Positions 293 to 11,670 of a stretch of 21,065 nt of DNA are shown piece after piece; positions within the stretch are counted from its first letter, which is position 1; every line of letters starts with the position of its first letter. The notes beneath the pieces are model-generated. The model was given only the letters and a program-made list of their open reading frames with translations, searched no databases and had not been told where the DNA came from. Location: IMG/VR virus record IMGVR_UViG_3300042882_000428, positions 1 through 21,065 of that record. One strand, written 5' to 3'. Both the position numbers and the translations under genes were made by a program. The stretch comes from a virus.

Positions 293-574
293 AGCAGTCC
301 TCCTGTGACTGGGAACAAATCCACAGCCAGCAGGATTGCAAACGTGTCAAGGAATCAGGGCCGCCCTACTCGTAAGCAAAAGTGTTCGCTTTTCGTCGCT
401 TTTGGGATACGTTCTGGCGTCATGTCGCGGGGCGTGACACGACTGCGAGATATGCGGCAGATAATCCGCGTTAGCGCGACAAGCTTGCGGCTAGCGGCTG
501 CACGGCACTTACGGCTTGGAGATATACGGCCAGAAAAGAAAATACACGGGTCTGCTTATCCACTAGTTCTGCGA
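293..574 (-). promoter_or_regulatory. Intergenic region, probable promoter for the secreted-protein gene
   Basis: This 282-bp stretch is the longest gap between genes in the window, and I see no open frame with a ribosome binding site in it. On the minus strand a perfect TTGACA (plus 345-350) lies about 50 bp before the secreted-protein start, but no good -10 hexamer sits at the right distance, so the promoter call is weak. Two near-identical motifs, GAGATATGCGGC (447-458) and GAGATATACGGC (519-530), sit 72 bp apart in the same orientation and could be protein-binding sites. Confidence 0.3.
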
Positions 575-739
575 CTACTCATCGTCTTCGTATGGCTCGT
601 CAGCGTCGATCTCCAGTAGGCGGGCCAGCCTTGGTTCGATGGCGATCAGCACATCGTCGTTTGGCTGCGGCCCGCCCCGCATCCACATATCGTCGATGGC
701 TTGTGCCATCGTTTTGAGAAACAGCGTTTGGATGTCCAT
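575..739 (-). CDS. Small acidic hypothetical protein (54 aa)
   Basis: I do not recognise this protein. The start at 739 (MDIQTLFL) is chosen over longer options because GGAG lies just upstream at a good distance, and because the longer reading would pass through the 762-808 repeat and the opposite reading of the neighbouring gene. The protein is acidic, has no cysteines or membrane segment, and ends in DEPYEDDE. It follows the first copy of the structured repeat by about 20 bp and is the last gene before the 282-bp gap. It is probably a small phage accessory protein of the early operon. Confidence 0.55.
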   Translation of the reverse strand: MDIQTLFLKTMAQAIDDMWMRGGPQPNDDVLIAIEPRLARLLEIDADEPYEDDE

Positions 740-761
740 CGTCGCTCCAGTTTGTACGTCG

Positions 762-808
762 CAGAACCACGCGATGCAGCGGACGGAGCCGCTGATCGCT
801 GGCGTTCT
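762..808 (-). repeat. 47-nt structured repeat, copy A
   Basis: It is identical to copy B (1106-1152) except at one base (802 versus 1146). On either strand it folds as an imperfect hairpin: an outer stem AGAAC/GTTCT, an internal loop of 4 and 3 nt, an inner stem GCGAT/ATCGC, one unpaired base, then CAGCGG/CCGCTG closing a 6-nt loop. It begins 4 nt after the stop codon of the DUF551 gene at 813. Nested stems of this kind with AAC and GTT at the base recall integron attC sites. However, the bases next to GTT do not match the usual GTTRRRY, so the attC reading is only a hypothesis. The plus strand can be read as NHAMQRT. Confidence 0.8.
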
Positions 809-812
809 GTGG

Positions 813-1088
813 CTACTTGCTCGTCCTCGGCGTCGGCGGGAGCGGCATCCAGTGCGTGGGCCTGATGTCTTCCGCCCAGTCTGTTCTGAATCCGTACTCG
901 TTCTCAGGCAGATGCTTGTCGTAGGTGCAAACCGCAACCGTGAACGACTGCGGCGGAACATTGGAGCGGTACGCCAAAACGATCTGCCCGCGATCCGGCA
1001 GCGACTCGTCTATCGGAATCCACCGCCGCTCCCACTCAGCCATTGTCGGTTCCAGTTCTTCGATGATTCGTCGTTTCAACCAGCCCAT
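813..1088 (-). CDS. DUF551 domain protein (91 aa)
   Basis: Small phage protein of the DUF551 type, recognised from the opening block WIPIDESLPD (residues 23-32), the following VLAYRSN strand and the closing THWMPLP (residues 78-84). The family is widespread in phage early regions and its function is unknown. The start at 1088 is chosen because GAGGT lies 7 nt upstream; an in-frame GTG at 1106 lacks that support and would begin inside the repeat. The gene is bracketed by the two repeat copies: copy B ends about 18 bp before its start codon and copy A begins 4 nt after its stop. The repeat-to-repeat distance of 344 bp therefore defines a one-gene unit resembling a mobile cassette. Confidence 0.75.
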   Translation of the reverse strand: MGWLKRRIIEELEPTMAEWERRWIPIDESLPDRGQIVLAYRSNVPPQSFTVAVCTYDKHLPENEYGFRTDWAEDIRPTHWMPLPPTPRTSK

Positions 1089-1105
1089 CGTAACCTCTAC
1101 GCTCA

Positions 1106-1152
1106 CAGAACCACGCGATGCAGCGGACGGAGCCGCTGATCGCTGCCGTTCT
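1106..1152 (-). repeat. 47-nt structured repeat, copy B
   Basis: Second copy of the repeat at 762-808, differing at one base (C at 1146). It overlaps the last base of the upstream gene's TGA stop (1154-1152), so both copies sit directly after a stop codon in the same orientation. The same nested stem forms: AGAAC/GTTCT, GCGAT/ATCGC with one unpaired base, and CAGCGG/CCGCTG. There is no T-run after it on the minus strand, so it is not an ordinary intrinsic terminator. Confidence 0.8.
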
Positions 1153-1289
1153 CACTGCACCGTTTCGCAGGCCACTAGTGAACCGTTTCGCAGCCGCTGC
1201 ATCTCGTCTGCGGCCTCTTCCATGAGTAGGTGCAGCCGTGCCAGATGCACGGTTCGCCAGTTGCGAAGCCGCTCCACAATGTCGCTCAT
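1152..1289 (-). CDS. Small hypothetical phage protein (45 aa)
   Basis: The sequence MSDIVERLRNW...EEAADEMQRLRN has the helical, charged pattern of small early proteins seen in many phages, in which DIVERLR and ADEIERLR-like blocks recur; the function is unknown. The start at 1289 has AGAGG upstream and overlaps the stop of the HTH gene by ATGA, so it is probably translated by coupling. An in-frame extension upstream to 1352 is possible but has no better site. Its stop codon abuts repeat copy B. Confidence 0.6.
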   Translation of the reverse strand: MSDIVERLRNWRTVHLARLHLLMEEAADEMQRLRNGSLVACETVQ

Positions 1290-3406: not shown

Positions 3407-3997
3407 TTAACAGCTCTCGTCAACAAATCCACTTTTGGGATTCGACGGTGCCGGCTCCTGACCGGCACCGGAAGAATCCTCAATTGAGATCCCATTGGTA
3501 GTACTTGGACTACCAATGGATCTAAATGAATTGCGGGCACAGAGTGTGCGCGCTCCGCGCACCACTCGTGCGCGCTCCGCGCACGGCTCGTGTCCGGAGC
3601 GCGCACCACTCGTGCCCGGGGGGGGCACGCCTTGTGCGCGCTCCTGGACACCACTCGTGCCCGGGGGGGGCACCACTGGTGCGCGCGCCGTGACAAGAAA
3701 AACGGTGCGGCCAGAGCCCTCGGGCTTCTCCAAAACCTCCAGAACCCCACAGGAAATCATCTGCGTGATGCCTCTGCGAATGGTCGTTGGATGTACTCCA
3801 ACAAGCTTGGCGGCACGCCGGATGGACATCCTGACTTGGCACGTCGAGAAGTCAGCCGCGTAGAGCACGTACAAAGCCGCCAGACGCCCTTCTGATCTGA
3901 GCGAGGCTAGAGAGCCGTCCTCGAGCATCGCCCTCCAGCGGCGACGCATTTCGCCCTGGCGTGAAGGCTCCTTTCCGGGTCGTTTCTCAAACGTCAC
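3407..3997 (-). CDS. Lambda-O-like replication initiator with internal origin repeats
   Basis: Residues about 35-102 form a winged-helix domain, with a core of MSIRRAAKLVGVHPTTIRRG and a wing ending GSGRTVFLV, as in phage replication initiators. Residues about 105-155 are encoded by an array of 22-bp DNA repeats. Because 22 is not a multiple of three, successive units are read in different frames (VPPPGTSG, ARSGHEPCAERA), so the DNA repeat rather than the peptide repeat seems to be what is maintained. This matches lambda O, whose gene contains the origin iterons. The start is GTG at 3997, overlapping the primase-helicase stop by GTGA, the expected O-P style pairing in reverse order. The C-terminal 40 residues are polar and perhaps disordered. 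Confidence 0.75.
   Translation of the reverse strand: MTFEKRPGKEPSRQGEMRRRWRAMLEDGSLASLRSEGRLAALYVLYAADFSTCQVRMSIRRAAKLVGVHPTTIRRGITQMISCGVLEVLEKPEGSGRTVFLVTARAPVVPPPGTSGVQERAQGVPPPGTSGARSGHEPCAERARVVRGARTLCARNSFRSIGSPSTTNGISIEDSSGAGQEPAPSNPKSGFVDESC
3487..3523. repeat. Long perfect inverted repeat inside the initiator gene
   Basis: CCATTGGTAGT (3492-3502) and its exact complement (3509-3519) flank a 6-nt loop ACTTGG. With one bulged C at 3491 the stem extends by AGAT/ATCT to 15 base pairs. It lies about 23 bp from the 22-bp repeat array, next to a short AT-rich stretch (3520-3533), all inside the coding region. It could be part of the origin (an initiator or host-factor site or a primer hairpin) or an RNA structure limiting downstream expression. 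Confidence 0.75.
3546..3678. repeat. Array of six 22-bp palindromic repeats; candidate replication origin
   Basis: Units start at 3546, 3568, 3590, 3612, 3634 and 3657 (22, 22, 22, 22, 23, 22 bp), with degenerate partial units on both sides. Each has a roughly palindromic core of about 17 bp plus a 5-bp spacer, usually CACTC. Units 1 and 2 have GTGCGCGCTCCGCGCAC; units 4 and 6 have GTGCCCGGGGGGGGCAC. The core of unit 5 is the reverse complement of unit 3 with one extra T. Lambda's origin iterons are likewise short dyad repeats inside the O gene; the match in placement and symmetry makes this the best origin candidate here. That function is inferred. Confidence 0.75.
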
Positions 3998-10728: not shown

Positions 10729-11670
10729 ATGACTTTGAGGGATTTGCTGATTGACCGAGTGGCCCCGCTCAAAGGGCTCTCTGACCGCTCGGTGGTGATG
10801 TACCTGAGCAGCCTGGACAGGTTCCGCGACTACCTGGGGCATGAGCCCACGGTGGACGATCTGGATGATTTAACGGCCGCAAAGTTCCTGAGGTGGCGGC
10901 AGGCTACCCAGCACAGCAAGTGGAAGAAGATCTCGCCGGCCTCGCTGGCGAAAGACAGCGCCCACCTTCGGAGCCTGTGGACTTGGCTGGCCAAGAAACG
11001 ATGGAAACGCAGCAACGGCGAGCTGGTGGAGTTCCCCGACTACGCCCGGCCTCGCGTCCCTAAGCCGGTGCCAAAGGCTTTCAACGCCACCCAACTGTCC
11101 CAGCTGGTGGAGGCCGCACGCCACCGCAAAGGCCACATATGCGGCAAGCCAGCCGCCTGGTACTGGGTGACCAAGATTCTCGCCATGTTCCAGACGGGCG
11201 AGCGCATTGGTGCCGTGCTCGAGCTCCGGTGGTCAGAGGTGGATCTTGAGCGGCACACGCTGACGTTCCTGGCTGCCACCCGTAAAGGGCACAGGGAGAC
11301 GATTACACGGGCGATCACGCCAGAACTGGCCAAGATGCTGGCTATGTGCAAAGGGGCCCCCAGCGAGCGTGTGTGGCCTTGGGTGGAGGATCGTGAGTTC
11401 CTGTCCATCTACGGAAGTTTGCGGGTGCTGTGTCGCACAGCGGGGGTGCCGTACCACCCGTTTCACAGCATCCGCAAATCGACGGCCAGTTACCTCAAGA
11501 AAGCAGGCGTGTCTGCCAAGAAGCAGCTGGGGCACAGCAGCGAGGAGATGGCGGAAACCCACTACTACGACGAGGAGATCACGGGCAGGGAATCCAACCT
11601 CGACTACCTGCCAGACATCACGCAGCGGCCGGAAGACAGGCCAGATGCTGGGCCGGGCAGGCCGAGATGA
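10729..11670 (+). CDS. int: Phage tyrosine recombinase (integrase)
   Basis: 313 residues, typical for phage integrases that move the phage genome into and out of the host chromosome. The N-terminal 100 residues are a SAM-like core-binding domain (SDRSVVMYLSSLDRFRDYLG). The catalytic residues are visible: R159 in GERIGAVLELRW, K186 in RKG, H246 and R249 in HPFHSIRKS, H269 in LGHSSEEMAETHYYD, and Y279 or Y280 as the nucleophile. It is the only clear plus-strand gene, divergent from the xis-like gene and convergent with the operon ending at 11737. GGGAGG lies upstream of the ATG. The attachment site is not identified. Confidence 0.95.
   Translation: MTLRDLLIDRVAPLKGLSDRSVVMYLSSLDRFRDYLGHEPTVDDLDDLTAAKFLRWRQATQHSKWKKISPASLAKDSAHLRSLWTWLAKKRWKRSNGELVEFPDYARPRVPKPVPKAFNATQLSQLVEAARHRKGHICGKPAAWYWVTKILAMFQTGERIGAVLELRWSEVDLERHTLTFLAATRKGHRETITRAITPELAKMLAMCKGAPSERVWPWVEDREFLSIYGSLRVLCRTAGVPYHPFHSIRKSTASYLKKAGVSAKKQLGHSSEEMAETHYYDEEITGRESNLDYLPDITQRPEDRPDAGPGRPR

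Follow-up and report, generated by a model that had tools for sequence, protein, structure and literature searches.

The window analysed here is an entire IMG/VR-type virus record of 21,065 bases, possibly a fragment, whose proteins include a beta clamp, a DnaB-type helicase, a tape measure protein and a phage integrase (Pfam and PHROG searches). Two copies of a repeat in the same orientation (759-808 and 1103-1152; 96% identical, 344 nt apart) lie within a run of minus-strand genes, with the beta clamp gene and an HTH gene upstream of them. An earlier note on this DNA, made from its letters alone, had likened the unit that they enclose to an integron cassette, and much of what it described is borne out. 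The gene between the repeats is a minus-strand DUF551 gene (Pfam E 8e-10) with GAGG before its ATG, and each repeat adjoins a stop codon: on the gene strand the DUF551 TAG (813-815) precedes copy 1 by 4 nt, while the TGA of the next ORF (1152-1154) overlaps copy 2. The copies fold at -13.4 to -14.9 kcal/mol (z -2.1 to -3.2) into the two nested stems reported, with a closing AAC/GTT stem and an unpaired G, and they do depart from GTTRRRY as the note had stated. A second unpaired base in the fold was overlooked, as were an attI-like site at about 516-568 and a first cassette at 567-804. As we read them, the features of the region are as follows.

516-568, plus strand: attI-like site, recognised by the matching end of cassette 1 and by homology to siblings; strand exchange expected between the G and the TT of GTT (566-568)
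567-804, plus strand: cassette 1, running from the TT that follows the attI-like site up to the G in the GTT of attC1; matching ends
575-739, minus strand: ORF of cassette 1, 54 aa, no family; GGAG before its ATG
765-806, plus strand: attC1 core, AAC to GTT; short-loop type, cassette 1's own attC
805-1148, plus strand: cassette 2 (DUF551); matching ends
813-1088, minus strand: DUF551 gene, ATG with GAGG; the ORF finder start is a GTG at 1106
1109-1150, plus strand: attC2 core, AAC to GTT; cassette 2's own attC
1149-1285, plus strand: remnant cassette 3, without an attC of its own; its ORF (1152-1289, minus strand) shares bases with the HTH stop codon
1286-1660, minus strand: HTH protein gene (HTH_23), the backbone gene nearest the array on its right; siblings are 85-99% identical in this region
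10729-11670, plus strand: phage tyrosine recombinase (Phage_integrase, phrog_1); a possible candidate recombinase, not an integron integrase

Cassette 1 begins with CTGCGAC after GTT (566-568), 7 nt complementary to the flank before attC1, and cassette 2 begins with TTCTGTG, complementary to the CACAGAA that precedes attC2. The ORF of cassette 1, in a longer frame used as query, has no match in Pfam or PHROG, and the DNA of window positions 700-1200 gave no long match. The stop codon of the HTH gene and the ATG of the ORF in remnant cassette 3 overlap at 1286-1289, which suggests that the two became translationally coupled once an attC was lost. Elsewhere in the window, a GC-rich stretch made of tandem repeats about 22 and 45 nt long (3533-3693) lies within a minus-strand ORF (3407-3997), to whose product it would give a repetitive end.

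The window repeats belong to a large family. An 18-mer, AACCACGCGATGCAGCGG, is found in at least 119 viral stretches, and across the 154 copies that were read the arms are conserved and the loop is variable. A structural finder (AACC, 6-nt offset, 5-bp arm, bulged G, 6-bp arm, loop, complementary arms, GTT) returned 604 elements, 533 of them distinct when their flanks are included, spread over 227 of the 254 IMG/VR loci, and the same loci reversed gave 12 elements; loci L120-L123 and L193-L232 are excluded from the counts over 254 loci. IMG/VR contigs are often fragments and several loci come from one contig, a redundancy that counting distinct sequences removes only partly. Chance is excluded by this family evidence, that is, by the spread of the 18-mer and by the excess of elements over the backwards control. 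Where a locus holds two or more elements (157 loci), they share one orientation in 151 and occupy both strands in 6.

Because the finder imposes the outer stem and the first bulge, leaving the inner stem and second bulge free, the outer arms and first bulge were tested apart. When any bulge was allowed, the AACC arm had exactly one unpaired base in 380 of 380 elements (G in 374, C in 5, T in 1), the other arm had none in any of them, and the backwards control gave 0. A second unpaired A, six bases further, is present in 508 of 533 elements, in a part of the loop that the finder does not constrain, and 392 of 417 long loops pair at four of four positions when this A is skipped, against 0 of 417 when it is not. 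Covariation was scored over 23 long-loop sites, each from a different arm class. The score is 0.478, compared with 0.135 after shuffling and no more than 0.097 after sliding, and it includes covariation of the outer stem and first bulge for which the finder partly selects; both sides have changed in 11 of 18 pairs. Two of the five covariation measures are unexceptional, namely the number of pairs with both sides changed (attained in 32 of 500 shuffles) and the number of pair types (in 233 of 500).

The spacing of these unpaired positions can be set beside that of a known site. As reference we used the attC of aadA, in a sequence that is present at 100% identity in plasmids. In the phage elements AAC is followed by 8 nt, the first unpaired base, 6 nt and the unpaired A, with 9 nt to GTT on the other arm (508 of 533), and the aadA site has the same spacing (8, 6 with A, 9). 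The R'' and L'' boxes would therefore lie on the AACC arm, with strand exchange at the GTT end. Known attC sites are described (PMC2727003) as having R'' and R' boxes, an unpartnered L'' base, extrahelical bases, an unpaired central spacer and a variable terminal structure. All of these have counterparts in the phage elements: the unpartnered L'' base, a second extrahelical base, the unpaired central spacer and a variable terminal loop, as well as terminal inverted boxes ending in AAC and GTT (a finder requirement, 604 against 12 in the control). With the 7-nt boxes included the phage sites measure 48-148 nt (median 89), and those of the short type, at about 50 nt, fall below the 57-142 nt range quoted for attC sites. 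What does not agree is the sequence of the boxes: R' reads GTTRRRY in only 3 of 531 sites and R'' reads RYYYAAC in only 4 of 531, R' being mostly GTTCT or GTTAT.

The opening bases of an integron cassette are complementary to the R'' box of the attC that belongs to it. Such matching ends recur in the phage arrays: the bases after GTT are complementary to those before the next AAC over a mean of 4.63 positions in 318 distinct bodies (four or more in 254, fewer in 64), compared with a mean of 1.84 and a maximum of 2.08 over 1000 permutations of the unit ends. The units are compact, with a median body of 294 nt and usually one ORF, and the ORF stop falls within -3 to 10 nt of the next element in 277 of 313 cases. 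Assigning each attC to a cassette from matching ends alone was considered and dropped; the ends do not tell which neighbour belongs, and site geometry, the attI-like site and co-inheritance were therefore used instead.

With the matching end of an array's first unit as the sole guide, the sequence that immediately precedes its GTT proves to be conserved. We built a matrix (24 columns, 26 bits, cut-off 13) on 59 of the 106 distinct array ends; by eye, the remaining ends were judged to be other variants, attC sites or chance. The consensus, TTATCCGGATCCGCAGAAACACTG followed by GTT, is recognised in 98 of 254 loci, once per locus, with 0 in the backwards control; 156 of the 254 are missed. Of the 98 sites, 87 have a same-strand attC to their right at a median distance of 272 nt and none is opposed to its attC, 10 are in loci with no detected attC, and 1 has no attC to its right. 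Since 26 loci had been fetched only through the attI pattern, the test was repeated on the remaining 228 loci, with training on one half and scanning of the other. It found 75 sites, two of them in a single locus, and nothing in the control; 72 of the sites have an attC on their right, and no site is opposed to its attC. In the window the site has diverged, with a score of 11.8 that falls below the cut-off, but it is homologous to the sites of siblings. Several variants have in common, by eye, a half-site containing TTA, an inverted half-site and then GTT. By position and by its conservation in 98 of 254 loci, the element next to the first cassette thus appears to be attI-like.

The ten loci with an attI-like site and no detected attC (L017, L234, L236, L239, L242, L245, L247, L253, L257 and L258) are possibly empty platforms, or they may hold undetected, divergent attC sites or too little sequence on the right. 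Beyond the attI-like site, the commonest neighbour is a gene for a RusA Holliday junction resolvase (Pfam E 2e-24 in L014, with homologues in 34 other loci; 83 have enough sequence), which could act on recombination intermediates.

The backbone of the window recurs in seven sibling records, with 89-96% identity to the left (L069 not covered) and 85-99% to the right. Had these relatives kept the same genes and repeats in a fixed order, the capture proposed in the earlier note would have lost its footing; the backbone is kept, and the content of the array differs. The window has 2 attC, L172 3, L160 1, L139 2, L136 4, L063 4, L158 2 and L069 2, and in the six siblings with both sides present the distance between the shared backbones ranges from 378 to 1547 bp. 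Cassette 1 of the window is in none of the seven, and four have partial matches to cassettes 2 and 3. In L172, L160, L136, L063 and L069 an attC abuts the backbone at its start (window 1286), in place of which L139 and the window have in common the remnant of cassette 3 without its own attC; in L158 the right-hand match starts further on, beside a truncated attC. The body of cassette 1 (569-764) is present at full length in L152 (94%) and L189 (92%), with other left ends and other neighbours. Matching ends, an attI-like site at the fixed end and cassettes that differ between siblings are thus shown by comparison of sequences. Together with the attC anatomy and the occurrence of cassette 1 elsewhere, they support the cassette reading. 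The earlier note had further placed the capture site at the end of an operon; that placement needs correction, as genes in the same direction continue past the array in relatives (RusA beyond the attI-like site).

The textbook cassette has its attC 3' of the ORF (PMC4670013). Here the longest ORF of a unit is antisense to attC in 218 of 318 units, sense in 16 and ambiguous in 84. As the genes mostly run antisense, the attC lies at the 5' end of the gene, so that the attC at the gene's 3' end, expected of a conventional cassette, is not what these phages have, and the cassette reading of the earlier note is to be corrected in this respect. Inheritance is consistent with this geometry. In 35 pairs of homologous bodies found in other contexts, the attC on the 5' side keeps its class (start or non-start, see below) in 32 and its arm sequence in 21, compared with 19 and 5 for the attC of the left neighbour; an earlier comparison of 75 pairs pointed to the right element in 24, to the left in 8 and to neither in 43. 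Several homologous bodies have different attC sites on both flanks, which is impossible by one-sided exchange, and so either both ends recombine or homologous recombination also acts.

Nearly half of the elements have a further property. In 250 of 533, the loop contains a Shine-Dalgarno-like motif and a start codon (ATG in 247) from which the frame stays open as far as the element extends, and 241 of these start heads continue in one frame into the gene, with 9 out of frame. Behind start heads the body is open in phase over at least 80% of its length in 79% of cases (n=157), against 35% behind other elements (n=161), and a start signal within the body itself is found in 24% against 76%. The codon at the junction of head and body played no part in sorting the elements; among start heads it is a stop in 0 of 239, among the others in 20 of 289 (p 6.5e-6). 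In L027, the attC encodes residues 1-14 of a C5 methylase whose Pfam match begins at residue 19 and whose next start codon is at 39; if translation begins in the attC, the N-terminus would be MTHDVAGPSVASLG. Many of the leaders encoded by attC are acidic, for example MSDENERSVASAG, MTDEVDEMSAASRG and MSDETTPQDDKAMSPASAG. We infer that, in about half of the sites, translation starts inside the attC and the protein reads through the stem. Such a role may explain the altered R' box, since GTTRRRY would place TRR at the junction of head and body, a stop in three of four cases. Both window attC sites are of the short-loop, non-start type, and the genes of the window therefore use their own ribosome-binding sites.

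It is tempting to speculate, and somewhat against the odds, that these phages represent a lineage with modular heads, a phage-specific integron in which heads made of a ribosome-binding site, a start codon and an acidic leader (mostly 13-19 residues) reassort with headless bodies at the AAC and GTT ends under a host recombinase, yielding combinatorial in-frame N-terminal fusions.

The cargo is largely unfamiliar. Of 175 representatives of cassette proteins with at least 60 aa, 132 were searched against protein families. Few match Pfam, in 15 families that include C5, Dam and N4 methylases, Mom, HNH nucleases, HTH proteins and DUF551; PHROGs adds phosphoadenosine phosphosulfate reductase (among the 25 of 94 families listed). 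In single-linkage clustering of 307 cassette proteins, the representative of one of the two largest clusters (42 members) matches DUF551.

None of 100 records with an attC or attI-like site encodes an integron integrase over the TIGR02249 cut-off (two matches were weak and partial), a search in which many records are fragments and the control genomes also had no integron integrase over the cut-off. The enzyme may therefore act in trans, and we favour, as the inferred source, an integron integrase of the host. The foremost competing proposal is that a tyrosine recombinase of the phage itself moves the cassettes. Such enzymes are common, since 38 of 50 records match PF00589, 34 of them above the cut-off, and they are related: of 29 compared (from 30), most match most others, the window enzyme matching 25 of the other 28. 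Yet the remaining 12 of 50 records have no match, though many are fragments; the window enzyme is by family an ordinary phage integrase (phrog_1) with no match to TIGR02249; and its gene lies about 10 kb from the attI-like site. We consider this proposal unlikely, if still a serious contender, and continue to favour the host integrase.

Attempts to name the host were less productive. The earlier note linked such repeats to planctomycete genomes, a link that was not confirmed: the pattern, with loops of 3-33 nt, matched 2 contigs in 84,980 species genomes, one a classic-polarity array (L120) and the other (L121) read as a chance match in coding sequence, and a planctomycete origin was set aside. 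In a pattern search of 61 genomes, comprising that of L120 and its relatives, only L120's and one other matched. Tyrosine recombinase matches in the L120 genome all fall short of the integron-integrase cut-off, and we read them as Xer-like or insertion-sequence enzymes. Proteins 29-32% identical to the window integrase (E up to 1e-15) occur in 2 of 392 genomes of the L120 phylum. Cultured phages were also tried as a route to the host and abandoned, three window proteins being only 24-34% identical among the matches listed.

Ordinary homologous recombination, in which the repeats would be no more than conserved boundary sequences and a site-specific enzyme would be superfluous, is improbable as a general account. 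It would accommodate the swapping of heads of different families on the same body, the failure to find an integron integrase and, given near-identical short-loop copies that could recombine, some of the exchange itself. It gives no reason to expect that unit ends match, that bulges sit at fixed positions, that 151 of 157 multi-element loci keep a single orientation, that an attI-like site occurs once per locus, or that junctions with the backbone fall at GTT while the arms of the attC differ. Still less credible, and very nearly to be dismissed, is that the elements are only RNA hairpins, terminators or translational controls, copied between gene ends: they do stand beside stop codons in gene runs (277 of 313 stops) and have ribosome-binding motifs in the start heads, but matching ends, the attI-like site and the differences between sibling cassettes call for an explanation at the level of DNA, and in the window there is no Rfam match, nor any terminator or promoter match at the elements, so that the terminator-only role named in the earlier note as fatal to its reading finds no support.

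We therefore return to the cassette reading and hypothesize, with considerable confidence although from sequence comparison, that these tailed phages maintain an integron-like array of cassettes bounded by attC-type sites, with an integrase supplied in trans and attC sites that double as start heads. An integron-type tyrosine recombinase, most likely the integron integrase of the host, would exchange strands between the G and the TT of GTT; cassettes would be added at the attI-like site and shuffled or deleted between attC sites. The genes mostly run towards attI, inside a phage gene run able to transcribe the array. In about half of the sites the attC would serve both as recombination site and as N-terminal leader, with an R' box changed in such a way that the junction of head and body stays open. 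If this is true, capturing genes in the manner of integrons belongs to the regular make-up of a group of uncultured phages and is not something acquired now and then; the system has an attI-like site of its own, reversed polarity and a recombination site that doubles as a translation start. It also points to a source of the small genes of phages, among them DNA methylases, Mom, HNH nucleases and many of no recognised kind, and the use of a host integrase in trans by a phage becomes open to experiment.

Several known systems invite comparison. Phage boundary or linker sequences are short conserved joints between the exchangeable genes of mosaic modules, and the array described here likewise has short conserved sequences between exchangeable genes; we know of no description of linkers with attC structure, matching ends or attI. 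A bacterial likeness is L120, a contig from a metagenome-assembled genome of an unclassified bacterium, with similar arms (GCGATGCA and TGATCGC), of which the AACC arm likewise bears the bulged G; unlike in the phage arrays, all four of its ORFs longer than 200 aa run with the attC direction. Three of its five elements have GTTRRRY (GTTGGAC twice, GTTGGGC) and two do not (GTTGTAC, GTTCTGC). The same contig (1-5506) contains an apparent tandem duplication of a cassette, with ORFs of equal length at 207-1001 and 1475-2269.

Integron parts in phages are already known. Qi et al. 2023 (PMC9892861) reported integrons or their components in 21 phages, among them 17 CALINs; five of six attC tested were active with IntI1, the recombined junctions fell between the G and the TT of GTTRRRY, and two arrays had the typical bacterial orientation. 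Like those CALINs, the present arrays consist of small genes bounded by attC, methyltransferase cassettes among them, without an integrase; they differ in the box, mostly GTTCT or GTTAT, the antisense genes, the attI-like site and the start codons in attC. Measured against the definition of a CALIN (at least two attC and no integrase), the window has two sites and no intI match, but not GTTRRRY. In the open PMC literature, the scope of our search, we found no report of phage arrays with reversed polarity or of start codons within attC.

The class 1 integron offers a further parallel. Its attC geometry is shared, with two extrahelical bases at equal spacing, as is an attI-type site beside the first cassette, and in one phage array (L140) the attI-like site at the left end contains the 12-mer GTTACGCAGCAG, as in attI1, at about the same distance from GTT. 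Unlike the class 1 integron, the phage arrays are without intI, have their attC at the 5' end of the gene, and have genes that read towards attI.
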